A DNA stretch of 64,000 bases from contig NZ_CP109190.1 of the NCBI RefSeq assembly GCF_041438805.1, positions 7,378,001 to 7,442,000 of the forward strand, given 5' to 3'. Shown piece after piece: positions 23,761 to 25,767 of the stretch (within the stretch, counting starts at the first letter, position 1; every line of letters starts with the position of its first letter). The stretch is from Streptomyces sp. NBC_01707. GTDB lineage: Bacteria > Actinomycetota > Actinomycetes > Streptomycetales > Streptomycetaceae. A model generated the notes under the pieces. The model did not search any database. It had not been told where the DNA came from and saw only the letters and a list, made by a program, of their open reading frames with translations. Both the position numbers and the translations under genes were made by a program.

Positions 23761-23766
23761 TAAGGT
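23761..23766 (+). promoter_or_regulatory. Possible -10 element (TAAGGT) of the first structured RNA
   Basis: TAAGGT matches the TANNNT pattern and lies seven bases before the start of the first RNA's terminal stem at 23774, the spacing expected for a transcription start there. No clear -35 box is seen; the upstream bases belong to the PhoX terminator. Confidence 0.4.
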
Positions 23767-23773
23767 CCTGTCT

Positions 23774-23914
23774 GTGCCCAGGTGCGCAGGCAGGACCTAC
23801 TTCCACTCTTAATGGGGATGTCGCGGGTTCGAGTCCCGCCATCGGCTTTCGAGCCGGTGTAGCTCAGTGGGTAGAGCACCTTCGTCGGTTCCGCCGACTG
23901 TGATCTCTGGGCAC
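23774..23914 (+). ncRNA. YrlA-like Y RNA with a circularly permuted tRNA-like module and a Lys-type anticodon arm
   Basis: Ends pair perfectly: GTGCCCAG (23774-23781) with CTGGGCAC (23907-23914). The 5' strand carries GGTGCGC (23781-23787), the 3' strand TGATCTC (23901-23907), both shared with the two RNAs downstream. Inside are, in order: a 7-base anticodon-like loop CTCTTAA on a 5-bp stem (23801-23817, two G.U pairs), a 5-base variable region, a T arm GCGGG/TTCGAGT/CCCGC (23823-23839), an acceptor-like stem CATCGGC/GCCGGTG closed by a UUCG tetraloop (23840-23859), TA, and a D arm GCTC/GAGC with an AGTGGGTA loop (23862-23877). This is a tRNA cut at position 26/27 and re-joined through its acceptor end, the topology of bacterial YrlA RNAs. 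It lies upstream of the Ro60 gene. Confidence 0.82.
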
Positions 23915-23939
23915 GTACAGCTCAAAGAAATTGCACGCA

Positions 23940-24009
23940 CCTCCCGGTGCGCGGGCCACGGCTACTTCTTCGAACAAGTTCCGCCGTCGCCGACCTTGAT
24001 CTCGGGAGG
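23940..24009 (+). ncRNA. Short Y RNA-like transcript without a tRNA-like module
   Basis: CCTCCCG (23940-23946) pairs with CGGGAGG (24003-24009). GGTGCGC (23946-23952) and TGATCTC (23997-24003) occupy the same places as in the neighbouring RNAs. An internal helix ACGGC/GCCGT and a short hairpin (ACTT...AAGT, loop around TTCGAA) replace the tRNA-like module. The shared TACTTC hexamer starts at 23963. At about 70 bases it would be a stem-only Y RNA. Its ends are less certain than those of the other two. Confidence 0.7.
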
Positions 24010-24018
24010 CACAGCATC

Positions 24019-24145
24019 GGGTGCCCGGTGCGCAGGTGACGGATACTTCCGACGGTTGCGGGTTCGAGTCCCGCCCGGCCACGGCCGGTAGCTCAAGGGC
24101 AGAGCATCAGGCAAGCCCGTCGCCGACTCCTGATCTCGGGCACCC
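24019..24145 (+). ncRNA. YrlA-like Y RNA with a permuted tRNA-like module
   Basis: A 9-bp terminal stem GGGTGCCCG/CGGGCACCC closes the RNA. GGTGCGC starts at 24027, TGATCTC at 24131, TACTTC at 24044. A second helix GACGG/CCGTC leads to the module: T arm GCGGG/TTCGAGT/CCCGC (24058-24074), an acceptor-like stem CCGGC/GCCGG with a CACG loop (24075-24088), TA, and a D arm GCTC/GAGC with loop AAGGGCA (24091-24105). There is no anticodon hairpin here, unlike the first RNA. It ends 41 bases before the rsr start codon. Confidence 0.84.
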
Positions 24146-24158
24146 CTGCGCTGTGTCT

Positions 24159-24180
24159 TTCCCCAACGAATTCGGGGGAA
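24159..24180 (+). promoter_or_regulatory. Hairpin that would mask the rsr ribosome binding site
   Basis: TTCCCC (24159-24164) pairs with GGGGAA (24175-24180) around a 10-base loop. The 3' arm is the Shine-Dalgarno sequence GGGGG of rsr, seven bases before its ATG. It may limit translation, or act as a weak terminator of the last Y RNA. Confidence 0.45.
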
Positions 24181-24186
24181 TTCACC

Positions 24187-25767
24187 ATGGCACGCTTCAA
24201 TGCCCGCATCGTCGAGGTGAAGGCGACGTCGCCCGTGAAGTCGACCGGGCGCACCGCACCCACCTGTCAGGGAGGCCGCGGACATCTCCGCGACAACCGT
24301 TCGGAACTTTTCCTGCTTGCCGTCGCCCATTTCGTCTCGCAGCAGACGTTCTACGAGAATTCCGAGCAGCGTGACAGCCGATTCGCCACGCTGGTACGCA
24401 TCCTTGCGGTGGGTGACCCCGACTGGACCGCCGGACTGCTGGGATGGCTGCGCCGCGACGGCGGGATGCGCACCGCGGCGATCGTCGGCGCCGCCGAGTA
24501 CGTGAAGGCCCGCCTCGACGCGGGGGCCGAGGACGGGCCGTCCAACCGGCAGGTCGTCGACTCCGTCCTGCTGCGCGCCGACGAGCCGGGTGAGCTGCTG
24601 GGGTACTGGACGTCGCGGTACGGCCGTACCGTGCCCAAGCCCGTCAAGCGCGGGATCGCCGACGCCGTACGCCGCCTCTACGACGGCAAGTCGCTGCTGA
24701 AGTACGACACCGCGTCCAAGGGCTACCGCTTCGGCGACATCCTGAACCTGGTGCATGCGGCGCCCGCCCCGGAGAAGGCCTGGCAGGGCGAGCTGTTCCG
24801 CTATGCGCTCGACCGCCGGCATCACCCGGACGCGGCTGTTCCGCCTGCCTCGAACCGCACCCTCATCGCCCACCGGGCGCTGATGGAGCTGCCGGTCGAC
24901 GAGCGGCGGGCCGTGATCACCGCGCCCGACGGGTCGGACCGACTGGCGGCGGCAGGCATGACCTGGGAGGCCCTCGCGGGCTGGCTGCAGGGTCCGATGG
25001 ACGCAGCGGCATGGGAGGCCGTCATTCCGTCGATGGGGGCGATGGCACTCGTCCGCAATCTGCGGAACTTCGACGAGGCGGGCGTCTCGGACGAGGTCGC
25101 AGCGCAGGTGGCGGCGAAGATCTCCGACCCGGCCGTGGTCGCCGCATCGCGGCAGTTTCCGTTCCGCTACCTCGCGGCGTACCGGCACGCCCCGTCGCTG
25201 CGCTGGGCGTACCCGCTGGAGCAGGCGCTCGGCCACTCCCTCGCGAACGTCCCGGCGTTGCGGGGGCGGACGCTGATCCTGGTCGACCGCTCGGGCTCGA
25301 TGTGGTCGCCGCTCTCGGACCGGTCGCGGCTGAACCGGGCCGACGCCGCCGCGATCTTCGGCGCGGCGCTCGCGCTTCGGGCCGCCGATGCCGATCTGGT
25401 GGAATTCGGTACGAACAGCGCACCGGTGACCTTTCGCGGGGGCGAGTCCGTGCTGAAGATCCTGGACCGGTTCGGTGATCTCGGTGGCACCAACACCGCG
25501 GAGGCGGTCCGCCGGCACTACCGCGGCCACGACCGGGTGCTGATCGTCACGGACGAGCAGGCGTCGTTCACGTACTACGGCGATGCCACCGAGGCCGTCC
25601 CGGCGAGTGTGCCCGTGTACACCTGGAATCTGGCCGGATACCGGGTCGGGCACGCCCCGTCCGGAAGCGAGAACCGCCACACCTTCGGGGGTCTTTCGGA
25701 CGCCGCATTCCGCATGGTGCCCCTGCTGGAGGCGGGGCGGGACGCCGACTGGCCCTGGAAACGCTGA
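24187..25767 (+). CDS. rsr: Ro60-like RNA-binding ring protein (TROVE plus vWA)
   Basis: This 526-residue TROVE-domain protein consists of an alpha-helical repeat domain (about 30-340; LFLLAVAHFVSQQTFYENSEQRDSRFATLVR, then GWLRRDGGMRTAAIVGAAEYVKARL) followed by a vWA domain (about 355-525) with the MIDAS motif DRSGSMWS at 367-374 and TDEQ as the last metal-site strand. Bacterial Ro60 (Rsr) binds Y RNAs on its outer surface and threads other RNAs through its ring; with PNPase it forms an RNA-degrading machine. Three Y RNA-like genes lie directly upstream, so protein and RNA partners are encoded together. Expression may be limited by the hairpin on its ribosome binding site. Confidence 0.93.
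   Translation: MARFNARIVEVKATSPVKSTGRTAPTCQGGRGHLRDNRSELFLLAVAHFVSQQTFYENSEQRDSRFATLVRILAVGDPDWTAGLLGWLRRDGGMRTAAIVGAAEYVKARLDAGAEDGPSNRQVVDSVLLRADEPGELLGYWTSRYGRTVPKPVKRGIADAVRRLYDGKSLLKYDTASKGYRFGDILNLVHAAPAPEKAWQGELFRYALDRRHHPDAAVPPASNRTLIAHRALMELPVDERRAVITAPDGSDRLAAAGMTWEALAGWLQGPMDAAAWEAVIPSMGAMALVRNLRNFDEAGVSDEVAAQVAAKISDPAVVAASRQFPFRYLAAYRHAPSLRWAYPLEQALGHSLANVPALRGRTLILVDRSGSMWSPLSDRSRLNRADAAAIFGAALALRAADADLVEFGTNSAPVTFRGGESVLKILDRFGDLGGTNTAEAVRRHYRGHDRVLIVTDEQASFTYYGDATEAVPASVPVYTWNLAGYRVGHAPSGSENRHTFGGLSDAAFRMVPLLEAGRDADWPWKR

Follow-up and report, generated by a model that had tools for sequence, protein, structure and literature searches.

The 64,000-nucleotide (nt) stretch of the Streptomyces sp. 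NBC_01707 genome analysed here (hereafter the window, in whose numbering positions are given) carries on its forward (+) strand an array of three Y RNA units, Y1 (23774–23914), Y2 (23940–24009) and Y3 (24019–24145), directly 5′ of rsr, the gene for a bacterial orthologue of Ro60. We hold with high confidence that positions 23774–24145 encode three Y RNAs ahead of rsr and that the effector end of Y1 is a whole tRNA, anticodon arm included, in circularly permuted order, with Y2 being a bare Y stem and Y3 an RNA of the YrlA type in which the Y helix replaces the anticodon loop. The original prediction, drawn from the letters alone, had placed three units at these positions upstream of rsr, and had seen T arm, acceptor-like stem and D arm in permuted order in two of them, Y1 and Y3; both points held, but the anticodon arm of Y1 had been overlooked. 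The anatomy of Y1 as an anticodon-armed Y RNA is well supported, and to the explanation developed below as a whole, from anatomy to proposed function, we assign a probability of about 0.6.

Read from 5′ to 3′, Y1 consists of a terminal stem S1, the GGTGCG box, a second stem S2, the letters TACTT, the hairpin TTCCA-CTCTTAA-TGGGG, a variable loop, a T arm, a capped acceptor stem, U8 and A9, a D arm, A26, C27 and C28, and the 3′ strands of S2 and S1. S1 (23774–23781) pairs with 23907–23914, and S2 (23789–23797) with 23887–23895, with one A-C mismatch. The anticodon arm (23803–23817) comprises tRNA positions 29–31 (23803–23805), the loop CTCTTAA at 32–38 (23806–23812), positions 39–41 (23813–23815) and positions 42–43 (23816–23817), which pair with 23879–23880. 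The anticodon CTT (23808–23810) reads as Lys, while orthologues have CAT, GAT, CTT, GTT, GCT, CCT and rarer ones. There follow a 5-nt variable loop and the T arm GCGGG TTCGAGT CCCGC (together 23818–23839), delimited by the Rfam model, the alignment and the pair counts; the 7-bp acceptor stem (23840–23859), whose ends are joined by a 6-nt loop (23847–23852); and the D arm (23862–23877) with A26 (23878) and C27 C28 (23879–23880), which are identified by the Rfam model, pair counts and invariant positions. That is, with the cap cut and C28 joined to C29, Y1 is a canonical tRNA, and the Y helix interrupts the anticodon stem on its 5′ side, most likely between positions 28 and 29. The rejoined sequence is at best 76% identical, to tRNA-Arg(cct), among the 33 distinct tRNA genes of its genome (part of 68 matches).

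Orthologous loci were obtained by a protein search in one genome per species, which confirmed 339 stretches encoding Rsr relatives. Of these, the 80 best, which all bear Streptomyces or [Kitasatospora] in their titles, form together with the window a set of 81 loci, i.e. the closest relatives only, in which regular expressions located Y1 in 58, Y2 in 72 and Y3 in 61. The 58 Y1 sequences make up alignment A1, and pairs were counted on its 55 distinct rows. The full Y1 structure is paired in 95.9% of the cells, and 13 of its 37 pairs have changed on both sides, as compared with a mean of 6.1 in shuffled alignments (none of 500 shuffles reached 13) and at most 2 for structures slid out of register. 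S2 is paired in 99.8% of the cells and the acceptor stem in 99.5%, with three of its seven pairs changed on both sides. In the anticodon stem all lettered cells (100%) are paired and two pairs differ in both partners (C-G to G-C in four sequences, A-U to G-C in three), giving the variants CCA/TGG, CGA/TCG and CCG/CGG. At the two outer positions of S1, pairing is missing in 40 and 39 of the 55 distinct orthologues, so that the terminal stem of Y1 is usually 6 rather than 8 bp long. Moreover, U8, A14, G15, G18, A38, C48, G53, U54, U55, C56, A58 and C61 are invariant in all 58 sequences, and U33 is present in 57, the remaining one having a gap. Alignment of the locus in other Streptomyces, a check suggested in the original prediction, thus revealed retained stems with compensating changes; the claim that pairing is kept by compensation is borne out by this covariation between orthologues, the differing stems of the paralogous units being weak evidence for it.

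When the Y1 sequences were put in tRNA order and completed with CCA, ARAGORN called a tRNA in 57 of 58, as compared with one of 58 in the native order. Since many force-aligned Y3 sequences were called as well, ARAGORN on rejoined sequences was dropped as sole proof and a strict test was used, which asks for T arm, acceptor stem and D arm, three pairs between 29–31 and 39–41, two pairs between 27–28 and 42–43, a 7-nt loop, U33 and a purine at 37. This test was passed by 52 of the 58 Y1 sequences, whereas among the controls it was passed by none of the 61 Y3 orthologues and by 7 of 2380 shuffled upstream segments.

The permuted set of T arm, acceptor stem and D arm is found in all 58 parsed Y1 sequences and, with a 7-nt acceptor strand, in 47 of the 61 Y3 sequences (the acceptor stem of the window's Y3 is shorter), and is absent from Y2. 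In Y3 (alignment A3, 61 loci) the Y stem continues the anticodon stem and there is no anticodon loop. The Rfam YrlA model (RF02553) gives 52.9 bits for Y3 (E 7e-11) and 38.7 bits for the tRNA-like part of Y1 (E 9e-7). The covariance-model search proposed originally was therefore successful in part: both resemblances are significant, but the gathering score of 69 bits is reached nowhere in the window, and weak matches to this model are not specific, since 7 of 14 control genomes also give matches below the cut-off. In the YrlA consensus the T arm follows the Y stem without an intervening hairpin, whereas Y1 has a covarying one at this place and Y3 none. In 19 of the 61 Y3 sequences the D arm (TGGCGGAA or TGGCGAAA) is what we take to be tRNA-Leu-like (L016, L017, L019, L025, L026, L029, L032, L035, L043, L049, L058, L061, L062, L067, L073, L074, L075, L078 and L080); a long variable arm accompanies it in 15 and is missing in four (L026, L029, L049 and L075). 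The type of the Y3 module, class I or Leu-like, changes at least 10 times on a tree of Rsr from the 81 loci, built by a quick method, which suggests that the module was exchanged or remodelled between tRNA classes repeatedly. Y2 (alignment A2, 72 loci) is a short Y RNA made of S1 and S2 stems and a small closing loop. In another family (L120–L122), a unit with a terminal stem almost like that of Y2 has, as judged by eye, small T-, acceptor- and D-like arms, for which reason the Streptomyces Y2 may be a reduced form.

The anticodon loop of Y1 evolves in a very uneven manner. The loops are CTCATAA in 18 sequences, CTGATAA in 17, CTCTTAA in 10, CTGTTAA in three and CTGCTAA in two, with eight others occurring once each, two of them gapped. 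On the Rsr tree, with the gapped loops of L003 and L006 omitted, the minimum numbers of changes at positions 32 to 38 are 0, 0, 17, 14, 2, 4 and 0, and the anticodon as a whole has changed at least 26 times (the omitted L006 carries A32). Tree error and transfer inflate the counts at every position equally, so the contrast between positions holds. Position 34 is C in 32, G in 23 and U in one of the 56 gap-free loops. Hairpin parses chosen without conditions on positions 33 and 37, from Y1 and two other sets introduced below, numbered 101 (a few RNAs being counted twice), and 98 of them have U33. The letters at 36–37 are UA in 60, GG in 15, CA in 10, AA in 4 and others in 12 (UC 4, AC 2, AG 2, UG 2, CC 1, GC 1); UA comes mostly from the related Streptomyces Y1, and the two other sets alone give GG 15, UA 9, CA 9, AA 4, AG 2, UG 2, UC 1 and GC 1. 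That is, G37 is found in 15 of the 16 parses with G36, and A37 in 74 of the 85 without it. In 31 tRNA genes parsed from the window's genome, U33 is constant (31/31) and positions 36–37 are UA in 14, CA in 11, AA in 4 and GG in 2. The Y RNAs thus largely obey the anticodon-loop grammar of tRNAs (U33; G37 after G36, otherwise A37), and 12 of the 29 Y loops listed are identical to the loop of a tRNA parsed from that genome. A kissing interaction within the array is disfavoured, since no dinucleotide within Y1–Y3 is complementary to positions 34–35 in more than 48% of the loci. The nearly fixed frame at 32–33 and 36–38 suggests that something reads the Y1 loop, while the mobility of 34–35 suggests no part in translation and perhaps a conflict.

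Anticodon-armed Y RNAs also occur outside Streptomyces. Of 394 genomes of the class, representing 137 genera, 53 genomes in 19 genera were matched at E 1e-9 by a covariance model built from A1 (R1, which the A1 members match by construction). In at least five of these 53, all of the window's genus (G123, G143, G153, G163 and G199), the match is partial and covers model positions 31–108 only. From the class-wide table 35 stretches were chosen, 27 of them from other genera, with 63 R1 matches. Twenty-four of these passed the strict test, 23 of them from other genera belonging to four other families (f4, f14, f17 and f18); anticodons in the 35 stretches include CTC, GTT, GCG, GTC, AGG, TGA, GCA, GGA, CTT, TCC, TCG, CGG, ACG and CGA. 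ARAGORN called 40 of the 63 matches when rejoined and 14 in native order, as compared with none of 1260 mononucleotide shuffles and none of 63 sequences whose core was left in native order. Of the 35 stretches, 28 include a portion of a TROVE gene, usually the beginning, and in the other seven none was found within the DNA fetched. Fifteen of 43 R1 matches in Rsr-encoding contigs of IMG/VR and five of 36 in 12 annotated phage or plasmid regions likewise passed the strict test. Armed Y RNAs were found in Nonomuraea gerenzanensis (anticodons GAT and CAG), on a Rhodococcus rhodochrous plasmid (GTT and TGG) and in Gordonia phage VanLee (TCT). The Nonomuraea array (L185:2472-4563) accompanies a distinct TROVE protein that is a remote relative (31% identity over 81 residues), and has different Y boxes, GGGTCGAA with CATATCC or CACATCC. 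Three further stretches (L190, L191 and L192) resemble it in having a different TROVE protein and their own Y RNA array (GGGTCGAA, CATATCC) with anticodon-armed units, and one IMG/VR contig (L174:1437-2429) has six consecutive R1 matches 5′ of its Rsr gene.

R1 gave 18 matches at E ≤ 1 in the window's own genome, the best two being Y1 and Y3; among the others, L085–L088 hold tRNA genes. An R1 match limited to positions 31–108 was rejected as a Y RNA in the case examined (L085:1473-1624), which consists of two tRNA-Asn(gtt) genes 4 nt apart whose junction reads in the permuted order of Y1 (52 bits). Such a tandem tRNA pair is a possible origin of the permuted module.

Relatives of Rsr are encoded in 43 phage records. 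Among eight phage regions, tRNA genes surround the Ro-like gene in four (Alone3, BRock, GiJojo and Atuin). In Kela it adjoins an RNA ligase gene, and in VanLee, Rabbitrun and Kradal it is located outside any such array, though tRNA genes occur in these regions. Just 5′ of the Ro-like gene, a tRNA annotation and an R1 match overlap in VanLee (tRNA-Arg(tct), 106.7 bits), Alone3 (tRNA-Ser(gct), 40.2 bits) and GiJojo (tRNA-Arg(cct), 46.8 bits); these annotations lie at L180:2704-2775, L178:2774-2847 and L189:2769-2843. In the window, too, ARAGORN called a tRNA-Lys(ctt), at 23770–23847, because Y1 has an anticodon arm. These four cases are a warning that tRNA finders can mislabel Y RNAs. For a Listeria phage, a published study proposes likely Y RNAs 5′ of its Rsr-like gene (PMC12282133).

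Several observations weigh against the explanation of Y1 favoured here. Six of the 58 Y1 sequences failed the strict test, four because of C37 (L002, L039, L054 and L075) and two because of damaged loops (L003 and L006). No variation at all is seen in 21 of the 37 pairs, and pairs 27-43 and 28-42 are invariant and hence without covariation. RNAalifold picks an alternative hairpin with two U-G base pairs at the bottom, leaving the anticodon loop unchanged; C27-G43 and C28-G42 are preferred here because they complete a Watson-Crick anticodon stem. ARAGORN is permissive, also calling 100 of 138 force-aligned Y3 matches. Y1 was not detected in 23 of the 81 loci, including L046, whose stretch has just 293 bases upstream of rsr, and is therefore dispensable. 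Elsewhere the strict test was failed by 39 of the 63 matches in the wider sample, 28 of the 43 in IMG/VR contigs and 31 of the 36 in phage or plasmid regions, the failing ones including Y3-type and short units, partial matches and tRNA genes, tandem ones among them. In the eight named phage regions the VanLee RNA alone passed it.

The rsr gene itself (24187–25767, + strand) encodes a 526-residue protein with a TROVE and a VWA-like domain. Matches to Pfam TROVE (E 4.6e-12) and to the solved TROVE-domain proteins 9l5y and 9kop (E 1e-27) support its identity as Ro60, in agreement with the adjacency originally proposed; there was no match in NCBIfam. The three neighbours of rsr that were scanned encode PhoX, a small CarD/tudor-like protein and TerD. 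Y1, Y2 and Y3 share the boxes GGTGCGC on the 5′ side, TACTTC, and TGATCTC on the 3′ side, and are closed in the window by terminal stems of 8 bp (GTGCCCAG/CTGGGCAC), 7 bp (CCTCCCG/CGGGAGG) and 9 bp (GGGTGCCCG/CGGGCACCC), respectively, all as predicted. A TAAGGT motif (23761–23766, + strand) is a probable -10 box, from which transcription would begin about 7 nt further on, at the 5′ end of Y1. A scan with sigma-70 patterns found no promoter, the box being assigned from conservation alone: a TANNGT box lies just 5′ of Y1 in all 20 upstream regions chosen for alignment. Spacing is kept across loci, at 7–29 nt between Y1 and Y2, 7–13 nt between Y2 and Y3, and 38–68 nt between Y3 and rsr. Furthermore, the spacers flanking Y3 are often complementary, with a best helix of 7.4 bp on average in 56 loci as compared with 5.0 bp when the downstream side is shuffled, although the helix measures only 4–5 bp in 11 of the 56. 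In the window GGCACAGC (24008–24015, + strand) pairs with GCTGTGTC (24150–24157), and variants elsewhere include GGCACAG/CTGTGCC and GGCGCAGC/GCTGCGCC; such complementarity would fit a possible processing helix enclosing Y3. In the minimum-energy fold of the rsr leader, a TTCCCC...GGGGGAA hairpin (24160–24183) covers the ribosome binding site.

The Y array is a common arrangement of Streptomyces. All three units occur together in 38 of the 81 loci, Y2 with Y3 in 18, Y1 with Y2 in 12, Y1 with Y3 in five, Y2 alone in four, Y1 alone in three, and none in one. The view that a three-member set of mixed architecture is unusual must therefore be abandoned, the more so as L123 and L130, stretches from other families, contain up to four units. 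With R1, Y1 was found (scores from 132.9 bits upwards) in exactly those 57 of the 80 loci that the regular expressions had identified, and Y3 in nine more loci as well as a short unit in L050. The presence of Y1 changes at least 15 times on the Rsr tree. A second rsr, 71% identical, is located on a 312-kb contig of the window's genome (G000:C2:58638-60140, L082) and is preceded by a short Y2-like RNA, read by eye and folded, where R1 gives no match. In L082, L020, L023 and L050, the searches near rsr found just a short Y RNA devoid of tRNA module.

We propose that one promoter ahead of Y1 would give rise to a Y1-Y2-Y3-rsr transcript, subsequently cut into separate Y RNAs, and that Rsr would bind each of these via the conserved GGTGCG/TGATCT stem, a scheme that the arrangement of boxes and spacers makes quite likely. 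Y1 and Y3 would then show a tRNA-shaped surface to tRNA-handling proteins, with the anticodon loop of Y1 as a selected recognition element, which is probably the case. More tentatively, Y1 could be a bait or decoy for anticodon-loop enzymes, i.e. anticodon nucleases or enzymes modifying position 37. Such a role would explain a nearly fixed frame at 32–33 and 36–38 combined with fast-changing positions 34–35. By extension, it is conceivable, if speculative, that in actinobacteria, and in some of their phages and plasmids, whole tRNAs with interchangeable anticodons are presented on Ro60 particles as baits or decoys for such enzymes. The earlier idea that the three units could provide Ro60 with several alternative RNA gates is plausible, and if the bait role is true, Y RNAs would form an anti-tRNase or tRNA-surveillance system that goes beyond gates. 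A Y RNA whose anticodon loop obeys the U33 and 36–37 rules would tie Ro60 directly to tRNA modification, anticodon nucleases and tRNA repair, and armed Y RNAs would offer a testable reason for the occurrence of Ro60 genes in some phage tRNA arrays and in RNA-repair operons.

A narrower possibility is that Y1 might specifically be a decoy for anticodon nucleases, in phage defence or bacterial competition, the changing anticodon reflecting an arms race. The variability of 34–35 inside a nearly fixed loop would agree with it, as would the phage Ro-like genes located in tRNA arrays (four of eight regions) or adjoining an RNA ligase gene, and published work suggests Salmonella YrlA as a competitive inhibitor of an anticodon nuclease (PMC7790460) and proposes that phage tRNAs evade such nucleases (PMC10264068). 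However, the latter proposal concerns nuclease-insensitive tRNAs and not decoys, all but one of the 56 gap-free Y1 loops have C or G at position 34, one Y1 per locus could cover one specificity only, and the eight named phage regions yield a single RNA that passes the strict test. Moreover, no nuclease gene is known here, no search aimed at one having been made. We regard this narrower role as an interesting but doubtful option.

Alternatively, Y1 could be an ordinary YrlA-type Y RNA whose anticodon arm is a functionless leftover of an ancestral tRNA. That 23 of 81 loci manage without Y1 and that Y3-type RNAs have no anticodon loop (0/61 in the strict test) would fit, and the module could be a fossil of a tandem pair such as the tRNA-Asn genes of the same genome, which already read in permuted order. 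A relic should, however, lose both the fixed frame and the 36–37 rule, whereas positions 32, 33, 36, 37 and 38 are nearly fixed against at least 17 and 14 changes at 34 and 35, and the rule is largely kept across anticodons (15/16 for G36-G37, 74/85 for A37). A relic is therefore disfavoured and rather unlikely as compared with a selected recognition element.

In some algae, circularly permuted tRNA genes with the same order of halves as Y1 yield working tRNAs. Y1 could by analogy be the gene of a working tRNA, matured by ligation and trimming, and its complete tRNA fold with the checked tertiary nucleotides would be in keeping with this. Unlike those genes, though, Y1 is sealed at its acceptor end by a short loop and varies in its anticodon, and its Y stem interrupts the anticodon stem. 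A working permuted tRNA was rejected because there is no constant anticodon for one amino acid, orthologues differing by at least 26 anticodon changes, and the closed acceptor end means that Y1 should not serve translation; we consider this reading very improbable. A tRNA gene with linear order and open acceptor ends was likewise rejected, the native order being called in one of 58 cases and the acceptor being capped. Least credible of all is a plain tRNA-Lys gene at 23770–23847, for which the ARAGORN call speaks but against which stand an Rfam tRNA score of 23.9 bits, below the gathering score of 29, the calling of a tRNA in only four of the 53 Y1-bearing loci given to the program, and the orthologue alignment, which favours a Y RNA fold.

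Likely Y RNAs near Ro60 were reportedly noted by Chen in 2014 in more than 250 bacterial and phage species, with at least one per species having a tRNA-like domain. In Deinococcus and Salmonella, the Y RNA binds Rsr by means of its stem, PNPase can be tethered by it, and tRNA-modifying enzymes act on the tRNA-like domain (PMC8394870, PMC4726728). Mycobacterial matches to YrlA and a TROVE protein of M. smegmatis have been mentioned (PMC9569102, PMC8628891), and the circular permutation of bacterial Y RNAs relative to tRNA is already published (PMC11472068, PMC13355120), in the former for the Salmonella Y RNA 6CU1. The Salmonella operon rsr-yrlBA-rtcBA resembles the window in having more than one Y RNA per rsr (PMC7790460). 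It differs in that its Y RNAs follow rsr, judging from the operon name, whereas they precede it in the window, and in having rtcBA, whereas none of the three scanned neighbours of rsr encodes RtcB or RtcA. The Deinococcus RYPER particle (Rsr, Y RNA and PNPase), compared by description, provides the model of a Y stem plus effector module that we apply to Y1 and Y3 (PMC8394870, PMC4726728). Like Y1, YrlA (RF02553; Salmonella 6CU1) is encoded beside Ro60/Rsr and has a terminal Y stem and a permuted T arm, acceptor and D arm (PMC11472068, PMC8394870). Unlike the Rfam consensus of YrlA, which lacks an anticodon hairpin, Y1 has a complete anticodon arm beside the Y helix, and Y2 has no tRNA module. 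No description of an anticodon arm in a Y RNA was found in the literature searched, a body that did not extend to the primary Y RNA papers. The permuted order and the presence of several Y RNAs per rsr are thus already known, and the complete anticodon arm is, provisionally, what is new: in the sources examined bacterial Y RNAs are tRNA mimics of the D, T and acceptor arms, to which Y1 adds the anticodon loop.

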